In this document: one piece after another, positions 5,239 through 47,883 of the stretch
How the letters are laid out: every line of letters begins with the position of its first letter
Numbering within the stretch: the stretch's first letter is position 1
Assembly: GCA_027484575.1 (NCBI GenBank)
Contig: JAIXSQ010000004.1
Span: 124,001 to 188,000 of the forward strand
DNA length: 64,000 nt
Reading direction: 5' to 3'
From: Comamonadaceae bacterium
Lineage (GTDB): Bacteria > Pseudomonadota > Gammaproteobacteria > Burkholderiales > Burkholderiaceae_C
Program-made: the position numbers and the translations under genes
Notes under the pieces: model-generated
What the model was told of the DNA's origin: nothing
The model's database searches: none
Seen by the model: the letters and a program-made list of their open reading frames with translations, nothing else

Positions 5239-6332
5239 CGCCGCAGCACCAGCCAGGTGAACGCGCCGAGCGACAGCAGCGTGTAGAGCAGCCCAGGGGC
5301 GGCCGCCGCGATCCACGGCGCCCAGGCGTTGAGGTTGCCCACGTAGCCGAACACGTTGTTGAGCAGGAAGAAGCTGATGCCGATCAGCACGCCGCCGAAC
5401 ACGTAGCTGGTGATCCCGCCCGAGCGGAAGTGCAGGTAGGCGAAGGGCAGGGCCAGCACCACCATCACCAGGCAACTGAGCGGGTAGAACAGCTTGCGCC
5501 AGAACTCGATGGCGTAGCGCTGGGCGCTCTGCCCGTTGCTCTCCAGGTGGCCGATGTAGCGGAACAGGTCGTAGGTGGGCATGCGGTCGGGCTTGAGGAG
5601 CGCCACCGAGACCATCTCCTGGGTGATCTCGGTCGGCCAGAGCAATTCGGGGACCTGGGTGCGCTCGACGCGCGCCAGTGTGTCGCGGGCGCCGAAGCGG
5701 GTGCGTTCCACGGCCTGCAGCGTCCAGCCCTGCGGCCCGAAGCCGCCGCGCCTGGCCTGCAGCATGGTGCTCAGGTAGCCGCGCTCGTCGGACTCGAAGA
5801 TGCGGATCTGCGCCATGGTGCCGTCGGGCGCCAGCGAGCCCACGTTGACGTTGTAGGTCATCGCGCCCTGGCGCTCCTTGAGCCAGGCGCCGGTCTGGCC
5901 CACGCTGATCGCGCCCTGGTAACGGGCCCGCAGCAGCTGCGCGGCGCGGTCGGCCGCAGGCGCCACGTAGTCGCCCATCGCGAAGGTCAGCAGGGTGAAG
6001 CCCAGACCCAGCACCAGCAGGCTGCGCAGCGCCCGGGCCGGCCCCAGCCCGCTGGTGCGCAGGATGGTGTATTCGGACGACTGCGCCAGCCTCGCCATCA
6101 CGAAGATGGTGCCGATCAGCACCGTGATGGGCAGCAGCTCGTACAGGTGGCTGGGCACGTTCAGCGTCACGTACAGCAGCGCCTGCGTGAGCTTGTAGGG
6201 GGTCGCGCCCTTGCCGATGTCGGGCAGCTCCTCGACGAAGTCGAAGAAGAAGAACAGGGCCAGGAAGCCGATCGTCACGAAGCTGACGGACAGCAGCACC
6301 TCGCGGTAGATGAGGCGGCGGATCGTCCTCAT
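5235..6332 (-). CDS. lptG: LPS export ABC transporter permease LptG
   Basis: Inner-membrane permease of the LptB2FG complex that extracts lipopolysaccharide from the inner membrane. The 365 residues show the LptF/LptG plan: TM segments near residues 12-35, 60-80 and 97-120, a large periplasmic jelly-roll region (about 130-270), and three C-terminal TM segments. It starts 4 bp inside lptF (ATGA overlap), and lptF-lptG order is the usual one. The start was chosen because MRTIRRLIYREVL fits the conserved N terminus. Confidence 0.95.
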   Translation of the reverse strand: MRTIRRLIYREVLLSVSFVTIGFLALFFFFDFVEELPDIGKGATPYKLTQALLYVTLNVPSHLYELLPITVLIGTIFVMARLAQSSEYTILRTSGLGPARALRSLLVLGLGFTLLTFAMGDYVAPAADRAAQLLRARYQGAISVGQTGAWLKERQGAMTYNVNVGSLAPDGTMAQIRIFESDERGYLSTMLQARRGGFGPQGWTLQAVERTRFGARDTLARVERTQVPELLWPTEITQEMVSVALLKPDRMPTYDLFRYIGHLESNGQSAQRYAIEFWRKLFYPLSCLVMVVLALPFAYLHFRSGGITSYVFGGVLIGISFFLLNNVFGYVGNLNAWAPWIAAAAPGLLYTLLSLGAFTWLVLRR

Positions 6333-7429
6333 GCCCCGGTCCCCACGCCGGCGCGGCGCAGCCGCGGCAGGGCCCAGTTGTTGTGCTGCTTGGCCAGCCA
6401 CAGCACCGCCACCGCCAGCACCGCGCCGTGCATCCCGAGCAGGAAGCCGCCGAAGGTGGCGCGCCCCGAGGAGATCCAGCTCTGGCCGAGGTTGACGAGG
6501 TTGTAGTACACGATGAACGCGAACAGGGCGAACACCAGGTTGCTGCTGCGACCGGCGCGCGGGTTCACGCTGGAGACGGTGACCGCGATCACGATGAAGT
6601 TCGCCGCCGCCAGCGCCAGCCCCAGGCGCCAGGCCAGCTCGCCCAGGTTGGCGCGCGTGGGCTCGAGCACCAGCAGCCAGGTGGGCACGGTCTTGACCGG
6701 CGCGTTGCCGCCGGGCAGGGCCTGCGCCGAGCCCACCCGGTTGCCCAGTTCCTCGAACTCGCTGACCTTCAGCTCGCTGCCATCCAGCGTCGTCTCGAGC
6801 CGCTGGCCGTTGGCCAGCAGCAGGAACTGGCTGTCGCCTTCGGTGACCACGCGCCCGGTGCGTGCGGAGGTGACGGTCTGCTTGCCCCGCTCGACGGTGG
6901 AGATGAACACGTTCTTGCCCGACTTGTTGTCGGGCGTGTCCTTGTCCAGGAAGAACACGCGCGTGCCGCTGGCCGACTCCTGGAACTGGCCGGGCGCCAC
7001 GCGCTCGAGGTCGCCGCGGCTGCCGTAGCGGTCCTTCAGGTCCTGGGTCTGCTGGTTGGCCCAGGGCCACACGACCAGCGCGAGCACCGCGATCGCCACC
7101 AGGATCGGCCAGGCGAACGCGAACAAGGGCCGCAGCAGCGACGACAGGCCGCGCCCGGCCGAGAACCAGATGACCATCTCGCTGTCGGTGTACATGCGCG
7201 AGAGCGTGCCCACGATGGCCATGAACAGGCACAGCGTGAGCACCGGCGGCAGGTAGCCGAGCACGGTGTAGCCCATCACCATCAGCACTTCCTGCGGGTT
7301 GACGCTGCCCCGGTTCGCCTGGCCCAGGGTGCGGATCAGGGTCATCGTCATGACGATCGTCACCAGCACCACCAGGCTCGCGCCGAAGCTGCGGGCCAGC
7401 TCTTTGCGCAGGGAGGAATGGAATAACAT
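6329..7429 (-). CDS. lptF: LPS export ABC transporter permease LptF
   Basis: Partner permease of LptG in the LptB2FG complex. The 366-residue product starts MLFHSSLRKELARSFGASLVVL, the conserved LptF opening that leads into TM1, with TM2-3 at about 55-130, a periplasmic beta-jelly-roll domain, and three C-terminal TM helices. The frame is open far upstream in the antisense of pepA; the start at 7429 was chosen from the family N terminus. It is divergent from pepA with only 39 bp between starts, the same arrangement as in many proteobacteria, so both promoters must share or overlap this gap. Confidence 0.95.
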   Translation of the reverse strand: MLFHSSLRKELARSFGASLVVLVTIVMTMTLIRTLGQANRGSVNPQEVLMVMGYTVLGYLPPVLTLCLFMAIVGTLSRMYTDSEMVIWFSAGRGLSSLLRPLFAFAWPILVAIAVLALVVWPWANQQTQDLKDRYGSRGDLERVAPGQFQESASGTRVFFLDKDTPDNKSGKNVFISTVERGKQTVTSARTGRVVTEGDSQFLLLANGQRLETTLDGSELKVSEFEELGNRVGSAQALPGGNAPVKTVPTWLLVLEPTRANLGELAWRLGLALAAANFIVIAVTVSSVNPRAGRSSNLVFALFAFIVYYNLVNLGQSWISSGRATFGGFLLGMHGAVLAVAVLWLAKQHNNWALPRLRRAGVGTGA

Positions 7430-7468
7430 CGGCGCGGTTCGCGACTGCTTGGACAAGAACGACGGATT

Positions 7469-8977
7469 ATGGACTTCGAACTCAAAGCCTCGTCCCTGGC
7501 CGACGCCGCCCGCCTCAAGGCCGATGCGGTGGTGGTGCTGGTGCCCGATGCGGGTGTCGTGGGCGACGGCCCGCTGGCTGAACTGGTGGACCATGCGCTG
7601 CGTGCAGGCGACCTCGACACCAAGGCGGGCAAGCTGCTGCAGGCCTACCGGGTGGCCGGTGTCAGTGCCCCGCGGGTGCTGCTGGCCGGCTGCGGCGATG
7701 CGTCCGGGCGCAAGGTGATGACCGCCGTGCAGGCCGCCGTCGGCGCGCTGCGCGGGCGCAAGGTGCGCCGCCTGGCCCTGTGGCTGCCGGAGGGCGCGGC
7801 GGCCGTGCGGGCCGCGGTCACCGCCACGGCCGAGACCAGCTACGCCTACGTGACCACCAAGTCCAAGCCGGAGCCGCGTGAGCTCGAGAAGGTCAGCCTG
7901 CTGGTGGCCGAGGCCGGTGCCGAGGCGAAGGCCGAGCTGCGCACCGCCCGCGCCGTGGCCGCCGGCATCGAGTTCGCCCGCGAGCTGGGCAACCTGCCGC
8001 CCAACGTCGCCACGCCCACGCGGCTGGGCGAGGAGGCCCGGCAGATGGCCAAGTCGCACGGCTTCCAGTGCGAGGTGCTCGGCCCGAAGGAGGTCGCCAA
8101 GCTCGGCATGGGTTCGTTCATGGCGGTGGCCCAGGGCTCCCAGGAGCCGCTGCGGTTCATCGTGCTGCGCTACCAGGGCGCGGCCGCCGGCCAGGCACCG
8201 GTGGTGCTGGTGGGCAAGGGCATCACCTTCGACAGCGGCGGCATCTCCATCAAGCCGGCGGGGGAGATGGACGAGATGAAGTTCGACATGAGCGGCGCGG
8301 CCAGCGTGCTGGGCGTGTTCCGGGCGCTGGCCGAGTCGCGGCCCGCGATCAACGTGGTGGGCCTGGTGCCGGCTTGCGAGAACCTGCCGGACGGCCGCGC
8401 GTTCAAGCCGGGCGACGTGGTCACCAGCATGAGCGGCCAGACCATCGAGGTGCTCAACACCGATGCCGAGGGCCGGCTGATCCTGTGCGACGCCCTGACC
8501 TACGCCGCCCGCTTCAAGCCGCGCGCCGTCATCGACATCGCGACGCTCACGGGCGCCTGCGTGGTGGCGCTGGGCGGCGTGCGCAGTGGCCTGTTCGCCA
8601 GCGACGATGCGCTGGCGGCGGCCCTGCAGCAGGCCGGCGATGCGGCGTTCGACCCGTGCTGGCGCATGCCGCTGGACGACGAGTACGGCGAGGGCCTGAA
8701 GACCAACTTCGCCGACATGGCCAACGTGGCGGGCCGCCAGGCCGGCGCGGTGACCGCGGCCAAGTTCCTGCAGCGCTTCGTCGGCGACTTCCCGTGGGCG
8801 CACCTGGACATCGCCGGCACGGCCTGGAAGGGCGGGGCGGCCAAGGGCTCGACCGGCCGCCCCGTGCCGCTGCTGCTGCAGTACCTGCACGGGCTGCAGG
8901 CGGCGCCCGCCAAGGCCGACAAGGCGGCCAAGGCCGACAAGCCGGCCACCGCGGTGCGCCGCCGGCCGGCGCGCTGA
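7469..8977 (+). CDS. pepA: Leucyl aminopeptidase PepA
   Basis: A 502-residue cytosolic M17 metalloaminopeptidase. The variable N-terminal domain (about 1-165) is followed by the catalytic domain with VLVGKGITFDSGGISIKPA, the DMSGAASVLG segment and the signature NTDAEGRLIL, which supplies the two-metal ligands and catalytic Arg. In E. coli PepA also acts as an accessory protein in Xer recombination at plasmid cer sites; this window carries a dif-like site, but no link is shown. The C terminus has an Ala/Lys-rich tail (KADKAAKADK) longer than needed for the fold. holC follows after 4 bp, an operon-like spacing. Confidence 0.97.
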   Translation: MDFELKASSLADAARLKADAVVVLVPDAGVVGDGPLAELVDHALRAGDLDTKAGKLLQAYRVAGVSAPRVLLAGCGDASGRKVMTAVQAAVGALRGRKVRRLALWLPEGAAAVRAAVTATAETSYAYVTTKSKPEPRELEKVSLLVAEAGAEAKAELRTARAVAAGIEFARELGNLPPNVATPTRLGEEARQMAKSHGFQCEVLGPKEVAKLGMGSFMAVAQGSQEPLRFIVLRYQGAAAGQAPVVLVGKGITFDSGGISIKPAGEMDEMKFDMSGAASVLGVFRALAESRPAINVVGLVPACENLPDGRAFKPGDVVTSMSGQTIEVLNTDAEGRLILCDALTYAARFKPRAVIDIATLTGACVVALGGVRSGLFASDDALAAALQQAGDAAFDPCWRMPLDDEYGEGLKTNFADMANVAGRQAGAVTAAKFLQRFVGDFPWAHLDIAGTAWKGGAAKGSTGRPVPLLLQYLHGLQAAPAKADKAAKADKPATAVRRRPAR

Positions 8978-11324: not shown

Positions 11325-11699
11325 TCACTCCCCGTCGAACGGCTGGCCGTTGCTGCGGCCCAGCGGGCTGGGGCGCGAGCGCAGCCCCGCGGGCAGGAGG
11401 TCCGTGAACATCTCGCCGAGCAGGGCCATCTGCTCGTAGGCCCAGGCCTCGCCCCGCTGGCGTGCCAGGTGCCCCATCAGCTCGCCCCGCATGAACCAGA
11501 GCGCCTCGGGATCGTCCGCATAGCGCAGGCGCCGGCGCAAGGACTGCAGGCGCTCCTCCTCGCCCGTGGGCAGCAGCTCGAGCATGCGTGCACGCAGGTC
11601 GTCGAGCGACCACCGCGCCGGCGTCGGCGAGGTCGCCGGCGCGGTGACGCTGAACAGCGCGTGCAGGCTGTTGCGCAGGTTGGGCTTGAACCATCGCAT
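11325..11699 (-). CDS. Conserved hypothetical protein, paralogue of the gene at 47542
   Basis: A 124-residue cytosolic protein of unknown function. It shares with the protein at 47542-47883 an MxWFK start, a RRLRYADDPEALWFMRGEL helix (the other has RRIRYAADIQGLWYLRGDL), a GEMF/TEMF segment and an LLPxxLxSRPSPL C terminus. The start at 11699 is favoured over the Met four codons earlier because GGAG sits 6-7 bp before it. It lies 15 bp downstream of the MerR/cyclase-like gene on the same strand and shares its terminator, so the two form a probable operon. Confidence 0.75.
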   Translation of the reverse strand: MRWFKPNLRNSLHALFSVTAPATSPTPARWSLDDLRARMLELLPTGEEERLQSLRRRLRYADDPEALWFMRGELMGHLARQRGEAWAYEQMALLGEMFTDLLPAGLRSRPSPLGRSNGQPFDGE

Positions 11700-11714: not shown

Positions 11715-13301
11715 TCAGGCGCCCTGCGGGCGCGCGTTGTCGTCCATGGCGGCGGCTGCCGGCATGGCCATCTCCATGTCCACGAGTTCGGTCACCGGCA
11801 GCTGCTCCAGCGCGGCGGGCACGGTGGCGCCGGGTGCGCCGTGGGCCGCGGCCAGGTCCAGCAGGCGGGCGAAGCTGCTGAGCACGCGGGCATCGCCGCC
11901 CGACGCATCGCGCCGGGGCACGCCGTAGCTCAGGCGTTCGCGCTGCGCGCCGTCCAGCTTGCCCACCAGGTTGCGGGTGATCCACACCGCCCCGCCGTGG
12001 GCGAGGGCCGAGAGCTGGCGGGCGTGGTCCACGGCGTCGCCCAGCACGGTCAGCTCCTGGGGATGGGTGGGGCGCAGCACGCCCATCCACTCCAGCCCCT
12101 CGGCCAGGCCCGTGTTCATGCACAGCTCGATGTCCCAGCCCTTGCGCACGCGCCAGCGGCTGCTCACGTGGCGCATCGCCTCGCGCACGTCGTGCGCTGC
12201 GGCCAGGGCATTCCACAGGTAGCCCTCGGCCGGGCCGTGTCCGGGCAGGAAGTAGCACAGCATCCCGTCGCCGGGGTGGCGGCCGTGGCGGCCACCGTGG
12301 CGGGCGAACACCGCATCCAGCGCCAGCCAGACCTCGTTGACCAGCTCGAAGTACTCGCGGGCGGGCAGTTGCAGCCACAGCCCGGCCGCGTCCTGCAGCC
12401 CGGCGGCCAGCACGGCGACCTGGGTCAGCTGGGGCGGGGGCAGGGGACCGGTGGCCGGATCCACGGCCACCGGCGCGGGAACGAGCTGCAGCAGGATGCC
12501 GGCGTCGGAGCGGACGGCTTGCAGCAGGTGCGGCACCCCCGCCAGCTGCAGGCGCAAGCTGGCCACCGGCTGCGCCAGGCTCAGGCGCGGGACGTGCTCG
12601 CGCAGGCGGTCGCGCGTGGCGGGGTCGAGATCAGCCAGCAGCGGATCGAGCGCCAGCCCGTGCTCGCGTGCGAGGCCCAGGTGCAGCGCCAGCACGCCGT
12701 CGCGGCCGGGGGCGTCCGGCCCAGCCCAGGCCTGGAGGGTGGCGAGCAGCCGCGCGGCCGGTGCCGTGGTGCCGACGCCCGCCAGCGGGCCGCCGGGCCG
12801 GCGGGCCAGCGCATTGCTCCAGACCAGGCCGGCCTGGCGGTCCAGCAGCCAGGCGGGCACCTGCAGCTCCGGCAGGGTGGGGGTGCCGGCAGGGCGCGCG
12901 GGCGGCGCCGGATCCATGGCCGCCGGTGCGGACGCGCCGCCCACCAGCCCCGTTCGCGAGGGCGGGAAGGAGGCCGGGAGCGCCGACGTCGTGACCTCAG
13001 CGGACGCGGCGCCCGGTGCCGGACGCGACGGCGCAGCCGGCTGCTGGGGCGTATCGCCGGCGCCGGCCTGGCCGAAATGCGCGCCGATGCGCGCCATGCT
13101 CCAGCCTTCGCGCTTGAGGCGCTGGATGTCCAGCACGCGCTGCACGGCCGACTCGGGGAAGTAGCCGATGCGGGGCGCGCCACCATCGTCCGGCTGAGGC
13201 GGCAGCACCTCGGGGCGCGGCAGCAGGCCGGTGGCGATGTAGTTGTTCAGGGTCGCCCGCGAGATGCCGGTGCGCTCCAGAACGTCCTTGCTGGTCAGCA
13301 C
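11715..13301 (-). CDS. MerR-type HTH protein fused to a degenerate class III nucleotide-cyclase domain
   Basis: A 528-residue protein starting at GTG. Residues 1-75 are a MerR-like winged HTH (TSKDVLERTGISRATLNNYIATGLLP, then IGYFPESAVQRVLDIQRLKREGWS). A Pro/Ala linker and a middle domain follow. From about residue 300 the order resembles an adenylate/guanylate cyclase homology domain: HPGDGMLCYFLPG (Asp345), MNTGLAEG, and ELTVLGDAVDHARQLSALAHGG. The first metal-binding Asp expected in the leading beta strand reads AAG, and the usual Asn of the VN-AAR motif is Asp, so catalysis is doubtful. It probably regulates the adjacent repeat-rich promoter region. Confidence 0.72.
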   Translation of the reverse strand: MLTSKDVLERTGISRATLNNYIATGLLPRPEVLPPQPDDGGAPRIGYFPESAVQRVLDIQRLKREGWSMARIGAHFGQAGAGDTPQQPAAPSRPAPGAASAEVTTSALPASFPPSRTGLVGGASAPAAMDPAPPARPAGTPTLPELQVPAWLLDRQAGLVWSNALARRPGGPLAGVGTTAPAARLLATLQAWAGPDAPGRDGVLALHLGLAREHGLALDPLLADLDPATRDRLREHVPRLSLAQPVASLRLQLAGVPHLLQAVRSDAGILLQLVPAPVAVDPATGPLPPPQLTQVAVLAAGLQDAAGLWLQLPAREYFELVNEVWLALDAVFARHGGRHGRHPGDGMLCYFLPGHGPAEGYLWNALAAAHDVREAMRHVSSRWRVRKGWDIELCMNTGLAEGLEWMGVLRPTHPQELTVLGDAVDHARQLSALAHGGAVWITRNLVGKLDGAQRERLSYGVPRRDASGGDARVLSSFARLLDLAAAHGAPGATVPAALEQLPVTELVDMEMAMPAAAAMDDNARPQGA

Positions 13302-13307
13302 GTCTGT

Positions 13308-13370
13308 GTGTCCAAGAGTTGTTGGACACAGTATTGGACGGTCTAATCAGACAGTCAACACATTTGGACA
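13308..13370. promoter_or_regulatory. Operator cluster of TTGGACA / TGTCCAA repeats before the MerR-type gene
   Basis: A perfect 8-bp inverted repeat GTGTCCAA-6 bp-TTGGACAC (13308-13329) is followed by further TTGGAC copies at 13334 and 13364. Spacing and dyad form fit MerR-type operators, and position just upstream of the HTH gene suggests autoregulation. Confidence 0.6.
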
Positions 13371-13511
13371 CAGGCGTGGCAGAAATCGCACAAATCGACG
13401 CGTGCCCGCTGAGCGACAGCCTTGCGTTGAATGCCGTCCCGTCGCGGGGCAGCGTGAGACCTCTGTCTAAATGACTGTCCAAGTCTGGTTATCTGTCTTG
13501 GACAGATAACC
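13371..13511. promoter_or_regulatory. Further TTGGACA copies and a 25-bp hairpin between regulator and SPFH gene
   Basis: TGTCCAA at 13476 and TTGGACA at 13498-13504 continue the repeat family. 13487-13511 is a perfect 11-bp inverted repeat GGTTATCTGTC / GACAGATAACC around TTG. Because no T run follows, it could be a weak terminator of the SPFH gene or an operator. The rest of this 215-bp gap holds no gene I can support. Confidence 0.5.
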
Positions 13512-13516
13512 GGGCC

Positions 13517-14431
13517 TCACGGGTTGCGCCCGGCCTGCACAAGACGCATCGCCGACGCGATCAGCGCCGAGACCTCGCCCATGTGGGTGGGCACGATCAG
13601 GGTCGACTGGGAGTCCTTGGCGACGTTGCGGAAGGCCTCGACGGCCTTCTCGGCCACTTCCAGCTGCACCGCCTGGTCGCCGCCGGGTTGGCGGATCGCC
13701 TCGGCGATCTGGCGGATCGCCTCGGCCTTGGCCTGCGCCACCGCCAGGATGGCGGCGGCCTGGCCCTGGGCCTGGTTGATCTCGGCCTGCTTCTCGCCTT
13801 CCGAGCGCGCGATGAAGGCTTCGCGTTCGCCGGTGGCGATGTTGATCTGCTCCTGGCGGCGGCCCTCGGAGGCGGCGATCAGGGCGCGCTTCTCGCGCTC
13901 GGCCGTGATCTGCGCCTGCATGGCCCGCAGGATGTCGGCCGGGGGCGTGAGGTCCTTGATCTCGTAGCGCAGCACCTTGACGCCCCAGTTGAGCGCCGCC
14001 TCGTCGATCGCCGCCACCACCTGGGCGTTGATGACGTCGCGCTCCTCGAAGGTCTTGTCCAGCTCGAGCCGGCCGATCACGCTGCGCAGCGAGGTCTGGG
14101 CCAGCTGGGTGATGGCCACCACGTAGTTGGACGAGCCGTAGCTGGCCCGCATGGCGTCGGTGACCTGGAAGTACAGGATGCCGTCGACCTGCAGCTGGGT
14201 GTTGTCCTTGGTGATGCAGACCTGGCTGGGCACGTCCAGCGGGATCTCCTTGAGGCTGTGCTTGTAGGCCACCCGGTCGATGAACGGGAAGATGAAGTTC
14301 AGGCCCGGCGTCAAGGTGCGGTCGTACTTGCCCAGGCGCTCGATGACCCAGGCGTTCTGCTGCGGCACCTGCTTGACCGACTGCACCACGAAGACGGCGG
14401 CCAGGACGAACAGGACGAGTGCGATTTCCAT
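13517..14431 (-). CDS. SPFH/Band 7 membrane protein (stomatin-like, QmcA type)
   Basis: A 304-residue stomatin/prohibitin-family protein. An N-terminal membrane segment (residues 3-18) precedes the SPFH domain with VPQQNAWVIERLGKYDRTLTPGLN, SQVCITKDNTQLQVDGILYFQV and ERDVINAQVVAAIDEAALNWGVKVLRYEIKDLTPP, then a long coiled coil rich in Glu/Ala/Gln. These proteins form large rings or microdomains in the inner membrane. The NfeD-like gene directly upstream is its usual operon partner. Confidence 0.92.
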   Translation of the reverse strand: MEIALVLFVLAAVFVVQSVKQVPQQNAWVIERLGKYDRTLTPGLNFIFPFIDRVAYKHSLKEIPLDVPSQVCITKDNTQLQVDGILYFQVTDAMRASYGSSNYVVAITQLAQTSLRSVIGRLELDKTFEERDVINAQVVAAIDEAALNWGVKVLRYEIKDLTPPADILRAMQAQITAEREKRALIAASEGRRQEQINIATGEREAFIARSEGEKQAEINQAQGQAAAILAVAQAKAEAIRQIAEAIRQPGGDQAVQLEVAEKAVEAFRNVAKDSQSTLIVPTHMGEVSALIASAMRLVQAGRNP

Positions 14432-47541: not shown

Positions 47542-47883
47542 TCAGCCCACCAGCGGGCTGGGCCGCGACGCCAAGCTGCCGGGCAGCAGGCCGTGGAACA
47601 TTTCCGTGATCGTGCCCACGCGCGCCCGGGCACCGGCTTCGCCGTGCACCGTGGCCAGCGCGCCCATCAGGTCGCCGCGCAGGTACCACAGGCCCTGGAT
47701 GTCGGCGGCGTAGCGGATGCGGCGGTGGACCGAGGCGTGGCGCGTGGCGCCTTCGTCGCCGAGCAGCGCGAGCATGGCGTCGCGCACTTCTTCGAGGGAA
47801 TCCTCGAGGACGGACAGCGTCGGATCGCCGTGTCCCAGCAGGCCGTAGATGCTCTGGCGGAGCCCGCGCTTGAACCATTGCAT
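47542..47883 (-). CDS. Conserved hypothetical protein, paralogue of the gene at 11325
   Basis: A 113-residue cytosolic protein. MQWFKRGLRQS, RRIRYAADIQGLWYLRGDL and LLPGSLASRPSPL mirror the protein at 11325-11699, giving the only clear paralogous pair in the window. Convergent with the LD-carboxypeptidase gene. The right neighbour is the prophage attL, about 190 bp away. Confidence 0.75.
   Translation of the reverse strand: MQWFKRGLRQSIYGLLGHGDPTLSVLEDSLEEVRDAMLALLGDEGATRHASVHRRIRYAADIQGLWYLRGDLMGALATVHGEAGARARVGTITEMFHGLLPGSLASRPSPLVG

Follow-up and report, generated by a model that had tools for sequence, protein, structure and literature searches.

A regulator gene, the small gene behind it and an array of repeat words in the promoter ahead of them make up a real, conserved and probably autoregulatory unit in the window, as we call the whole stretch of 64,000 nucleotides of Comamonadaceae DNA analyzed here. 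The regulator joins a MerR-type winged helix-turn-helix (HTH) to a PAS-like part and to a class III cyclase homology domain with a degenerate catalytic site. In the reading that we favor, with moderate confidence, this protein would act as an autoregulator that holds itself and the small gene at a set level through an array of TTRGACAG words. The features concerned are as follows.

11715 to 13301, minus strand: regulator gene with MerR-HTH, PAS-like and cyclase-homology parts (528 aa, GTG start, open frame)
13068 to 13301, minus strand: MerR-type winged HTH, residues 1-78 (Pfam MerR_1, structure model and column conservation)
12888 to 13067, minus strand: linker, residues 79-138, low confidence, fast evolving (pLDDT and dN/dS)
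12447 to 12887, minus strand: PAS-like middle part, residues 139-285 (low-confidence model, block pLDDT 39-71)
11937 to 12440, minus strand: class III cyclase homology domain, residues 288-455 (fold match and alignment)
11325 to 11699, minus strand: small gene, 124 aa, directly downstream, probable operon partner (conserved neighbor)
13353 to 13358, minus strand: -35-like TTGACT (consensus match only)
13330 to 13335, minus strand: -10-like AATACT, spacer 17 (consensus match only)
13308 to 13371, no strand assigned: candidate proximal operator cluster, spanning promoter and leader, with six sites at most one mismatch away from TTRGACAG
13463 to 13505, no strand assigned: candidate distal operator cluster, three exact TTRGACAG sites

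Domain make-up of the regulator

A previous sequence-only reading had placed the regulator at positions 11715 to 13370; the open reading frame accounts for 11715 to 13301, and the remainder takes in the promoter. The gene is present in one copy in the window's own genome. The MerR-type HTH named in that reading was recovered by Pfam MerR_1 (E 4.7e-4, 20.7 bits), slightly below the cut-off of 21.6, which among four relatives scanned was passed by L117 and L122 and not by L033 and L114, and the order of helices and strands in the predicted structure agrees with an N-terminal MerR winged HTH. The model was built from five sequences and has a mean pLDDT of 57.7, so that only its HTH (blocks at pLDDT 70-89) and its cyclase core are reliable. 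The latter clearly adopts a cyclase fold, with 166 residues aligned to CyaC (1wc1; VIA-align Z 19.9, rmsd 2.7), and a phmmer comparison relates the protein to photoactivated cyclases (E 1.9e-4). Between these two parts, residues 79-146 are modeled at pLDDT below 50, without a helix from residue 80 to 146; in MerR family proteins, a coiled-coil dimer helix comes after the HTH.

The PAS-like middle part is predicted, at low confidence, as two strands followed by helices and three strands, and it is absent from 11 short members (315-392 aa) of the window's Ramlibacter-like genus. A similar order is found in the ligand-binding domain of MltR/MmyB, described in the accessible text of PMC3406030 as PAS-related, with several helices inserted between strands 2 and 3. 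Matches of the family to the corresponding Pfam entry, MLTR_LBD, nevertheless stay below the cut-off: they are weak in 6 of 19 members (best E 0.0027) and missing in the window protein, three member rows score 12.8-16.2 bits against a cut-off of 26.3, and hhalign of the middle part with one true MLTR_LBD member returned a probability of 0.6%. A search of the middle-part profile against PDB chains yielded nothing better than E 0.52, and the middle part of L033, folded alone, reached a pLDDT of 40.8 and gave no usable model. An MltR-like fatty-acid pocket in this part is thus only a hint, and eleven members do without the part altogether. A true MLTR_LBD protein (L172, 90.9 bits) is encoded elsewhere in the window's own genome.

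The catalytic site has been replaced in the window and kept in distant relatives

We aligned 54 related proteins and located the six catalytic positions of the window protein at G301, R341, D345, T418, D425 and Q429. The sequence-only reading had described a retained G-D-G turn next to a missing first metal aspartate and a missing asparagine. All of this was borne out, with the second metal aspartate present as Asp345 in the turn, Gly301 in place of the first, and Asp425 in place of the asparagine. Beyond that claim, the lysine is changed to Arg341 and the arginine to Gln429, and four of the six positions are therefore altered, leaving Asp345 and Thr418. The window protein thus lacks one of the two metal aspartates of active cyclases (Gly301, Asp345) as well as their Asn, Arg and Lys, and while its fold is that of the class III adenylyl cyclases CyaC, CyaB, bPAC and OaPAC, the changed positions set it apart from them. 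It also has no match to Pfam Guanylate_cyc, an entry whose cut-off was exceeded by each of the four scanned relatives (L117, L122, L114 and L033). From these residues, the cyclase-fold domain of the window protein would no longer make cyclic nucleotide.

The wider family is not a pseudo-enzyme, as relatives elsewhere keep the catalytic set. L033, from a Desulfobulbaceae metagenome-assembled genome (MAG) of a different phylum, L075-L077, from another genus in the family of the window's genus (three genomes), and L114-L122, from other families of the order, read D-K-D-T/V/A-N-R at the six positions; L033 and L114-L122 keep all three of the transition-state Asn and Arg and the substrate Lys. Within the Ramlibacter-like genus, L098, L101 and L124 are intact, L094 lacks the Asn only, and the others lack up to five positions. 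One genome outside the genus, G611, which belongs to another family, carries both a decayed (L123) and an intact (L120) member; no core words of the array described below lie upstream of L123. An unrooted tree of the cyclase part requires a minimum of four changes between the 16 intact and the 38 decayed rows, three of them forced by supported branches. The direction of these changes was presumably loss rather than gain, since the intact rows on this unrooted tree carry the canonical residues.

The decayed cyclase domain remains under constraint

In nine decayed pairs, dN/dS of the cyclase domain ranged from 0.09 to 0.28, compared with 0.011 and 0.014 in two intact pairs, all at high dS, with dS near saturation in the L116/L120 pair and no ratio from L075/L077. 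The MerR part gave ratios of 0-0.26, and the linker 0.22-1.14 over the ten pairs measured. A pseudogene was ruled out by the open frame in the window and by these low MerR and decayed-cyclase ratios in pairs of relatives. Column retention was scored in 36 decayed members, leaving out L093, L123 and three near-copies. The 26 MerR columns that are invariant in intact members were 95% kept, and the other invariant cyclase columns were 74% kept on average. The catalytic columns were kept in 4 (first Asp), 10 (Lys), 8 (second Asp), 6 (Asn) and 5 (Arg) of these members (11-28%), values that are partly circular given that five catalytic columns define the split between intact and decayed. Cyclase domains of the Ramlibacter-like genus are thus decayed to varying degrees and still under constraint, and since the domain is constrained while its catalytic columns drift, it appears to serve a purpose other than catalysis.

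One such purpose could be nucleotide sensing, in which ATP or a cyclic nucleotide would occupy the dead cyclase site and thereby alter DNA binding. Such a role was proposed for mycobacterial Mclx2 and Mclx3 in the accessible text of PMC4452763, and the conserved fold, the constraint on the domain and the presence of Asp345 and Thr418 in the window protein are consistent with it. We nonetheless consider it unlikely: a site retained for binding should not drift as this one does, with four of the six positions replaced in the window protein and each catalytic column kept in just 4-10 of the decayed members. The sequence-only reading had suggested a nucleotide-sensing transcription factor. The sequence lends good support to a probable transcription factor whose cyclase domain is catalytically dead and whose own promoter holds a repeat array; the sensing part is disfavored by the retention of the second Asp in 8 and of the Lys in 10 of 36 members. 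A structural or allosteric role of the cyclase domain seems likelier.

An array of TTRGACAG words lies upstream of the regulator

The same reading had counted six TTGGACA/TGTCCAA copies ahead of the gene. Five are exact, with first bases at 13309, 13322, 13364, 13476 and 13498, and the sixth, from 13464, reads TGTCTAA (TTAGACA). The underlying repeat word is TTRGACAG, found at nine sites with up to one mismatch between 13308 and 13505; elsewhere in the window, no 220-bp stretch holds more than two such sites. None of 1,000 dinucleotide shuffles reached the count of six core words seen within 300 bp ahead of the regulator. TTGGACA occurs 10 times exactly in the window (2.76 expected), five of them in the array, and TRGACAG is not enriched across the whole window (7 versus 9.2 expected), indicating that the enrichment at the array is local. 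A single TTGGACA at 7449-7455 lies just ahead of an open reading frame at 7469 that resembles a leucyl aminopeptidase gene. The regulator is adjoined upstream by a Band_7/SPFH gene in the same direction (13517-14431, minus strand), and by eye a similar tail lies ahead of the regulator in L091 and L092. Right after the SPFH stop codon, a perfect inverted repeat at 13487-13511, GGTTATCTGTC-TTG-GACAGATAACC, overlaps a distal site; both this repeat and the lack of a T-run at it were judged by eye.

Upstream words were counted at 46 of the 54 aligned loci, leaving out seven without a located start (L073, L099, L106, L118, L119, L121 and L124) and one whose start lies at a contig edge (L103). TAGACAG was present upstream of 41 of the 46 loci and in none of 46 control stretches, and TTGGACA upstream of 32 versus 1. 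In the 300-bp upstream regions of 42 loci, a set that also drops L075-L077 and L123, which had no sites, we found 240 core words; mononucleotide shuffling left 10.3, and the gene itself contained 8. Chance repeats were ruled out by this excess, by that of TTGGACA in the window and by the shuffles. Taken individually, 38 of the 46 loci, including L033, L115 and L120, reached p <= 0.004 (dinucleotide shuffles, uncorrected), related loci sharing ancestry and thus not being independent. The other eight (L075-L077, L114, L116, L117, L122 and L123) showed no clear array (p > 0.01); seven of these have an intact cyclase, with the exception of L123.

The arrangement of the words recurs as well. At 35 loci of the genus, they form two clusters, one proximal (-90 to -10) and one distal (-250 to -120), and in most loci the best promoter consensus match lies near -50 to -85, with a TTGACA-like -35 element and a spacer of 15-19 bases. 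Across the 42 loci, the spacings of direct pairs gather at 12, 20-22 and 31, with peaks at the first two, and those of TGTCYA..TRGACA pairs at 13-16, 24-25 and 35-36, with peaks at 4 (as in CTGTCTAGACAG) and 13-16.

Strict pairs were then sought in 40 genomes, namely 27 of the genus with the regulator, five of the genus without it and eight outside the genus, bearing in mind that pair rows from one array overlap. Across the 27 regulator-bearing genus genomes, 32 of the 37 rows of inverted pairs, spread over 21 genomes, lay within 400 bp upstream of the regulator, as did 36 of the 65 rows of direct pairs, also spread over 21 genomes (29 of 65 elsewhere). In the window's own genome, strict pairs were found only at the regulator. 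The five genus genomes without the gene held one inverted pair, in one genome, and eight direct rows, and of four places elsewhere in the genus with inverted pairs, three were inspected and carried neither the regulator nor the small gene. This near-uniqueness holds for the genus only, as pairs in the eight genomes outside it were mostly not at the regulator (inverted 0 of 6, direct 3 of 11, all in G611). With looser patterns in the window's own genome, inverted pairs occurred at 15 places versus 2 in the control, 3 of the 15 at the array, and direct pairs at 28 versus 22, a number in line with chance. The promoter of the regulator itself is thus the principal clustered target in the genus.

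The array might instead be bound by a different regulator or form a DNA element of its own, with the MerR gene as no more than its target. Binding by the MerR protein is drawn from co-location, and the eight loci without a clear array would fit such an arrangement. We regard it as very improbable, given that the array stands ahead of the gene throughout the genus and, outside it, at L120, L115 and L033, the last in another phylum, and that inverted pairs are scarce elsewhere in the genus (5 of 37 rows), with a single one in total in the five genomes devoid of the gene.

Distribution and the small downstream gene

The regulator was found in 40 of 60 genomes of the genus, and G330 adds a contig-edge fragment. 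At the family level, 65 of 299 genomes gave a match, seven of them (own included) with the HTH part as well and the rest with the cyclase part alone. The order search, at 1e-12, matched 10 of 300 genomes (own included), and the class search 3 of 369, namely the window's own genome, G855 and G781 (cyclase part only), the match in G855 consisting of two pieces on two contigs that are probably one gene. Searches of L117 against plasmid and phage collections gave no match at 1e-10, and a viral fold search added nothing. At L093 (positions 6001-7317, genome G310), the regulator is split over two frames near residue 412, by a possible frameshift or sequencing error.

The small gene follows the regulator in 38 of 38 genus loci with room for it, at a gap of 7-69 bases in 37 and of 418 in L093, and was seen at that place in none of 14 loci outside the genus. 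Its product, of about 124 aa, has no Pfam or NCBIfam match, and NCBIfam returned none for any of the five proteins scanned. Of 59 genus genomes, 55 carry the small gene, frequently as two or more copies; in 19 genus genomes without the regulator, it was absent from four, single in nine and present in two or three copies in six. A second copy in the window (47548-47883, minus strand; 46% identity) has no regulator beside it. From their conserved adjacency, we infer that regulator and small gene form one operon.

Proposed mechanism and related systems

In the mechanism that we favor, the MerR-type domains would bind the TTRGACAG words of the regulator's own promoter, as suggested by their co-location. 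The bound protein would most likely shut out RNA polymerase, since six of the nine words lie from just upstream of the -35-like hexamer to the leader, thereby keeping regulator and small gene at a set level. The recurring helical steps in the two word clusters suggest cooperative binding of multimers across them, perhaps with a loop between the two. The cyclase-fold domain would most likely act as the module for pairing and for changes of shape, and the PAS-like part might take in a signal. Binding to the array words, repression, cooperativity and the signal are all predictions from sequence comparison.

MerR proteins can activate as well as repress, and a classical MerR activator that remodels the promoter on a signal, with the array as its activator sites, would agree with the type of HTH and with sites placed over the promoter. 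MerR promoters, however, hold the operator inside a lengthened spacer of 19-20 bp, whereas the spacer of the best-matching promoter-like pair in the window measures 17 bases and many of the sites fall outside it, making this reading quite unlikely.

Among known systems, the closest to an HTH combined with a degenerate cyclase are the Mclx proteins of Mycobacterium (Rv0386, Rv1358 and Rv2488c), where, in the accessible text of PMC4452763, a class III cyclase homology domain is fused to a LuxR HTH regulator, one member having all residues and two lacking some. There the HTH is C-terminal, with a possible AAA/NB-ARC part, whereas the family described here has an N-terminal MerR HTH, a PAS-like part and a conserved array at its own promoter. 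LitR/CarH proteins (PmlR2, PplR1) share the MerR-type HTH and TGT-type words at target promoters, according to the accessible text of PMC9758184; their word is TGTACA-N12-TGTACA, in contrast to the TGTCYA/TRGACA enriched here, and their B12-binding domain found no Pfam match in the window protein up to E 1. BldC, as presented in the accessible text of PMC5859096, binds cooperatively through a MerR-like winged HTH to varying numbers of direct repeats. It offers a precedent for multimers on repeats and not for the form, as BldC consists of 68 residues with only the winged HTH and uses 9-bp repeats, whereas the window protein has 528 residues, more domains and words in mixed orientations at steps of 10-12 and 20-22 bp. 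Among the titles and abstract openings of open-licence papers, we found no MerR-cyclase protein, and such a gene was neither mentioned in the accessible text of PMC3164672 nor found in that of PMC2447327.

We tentatively entertain a scenario in which intact members, found in other families and in one Desulfobulbaceae MAG, couple nucleotide binding or cAMP synthesis to binding of the TTRGACAG array, and in which the Ramlibacter-like genus would have lost catalysis stepwise while keeping the DNA switch and its operator. The family offers a natural series from intact through partly to strongly decayed cyclase domains on one type of DNA-binding head and one operator word. The operator word lends itself to immediate assay, and the series allows a test of whether cyclase folds work as allosteric parts without catalysis and of what use the intact versions make of the nucleotide.
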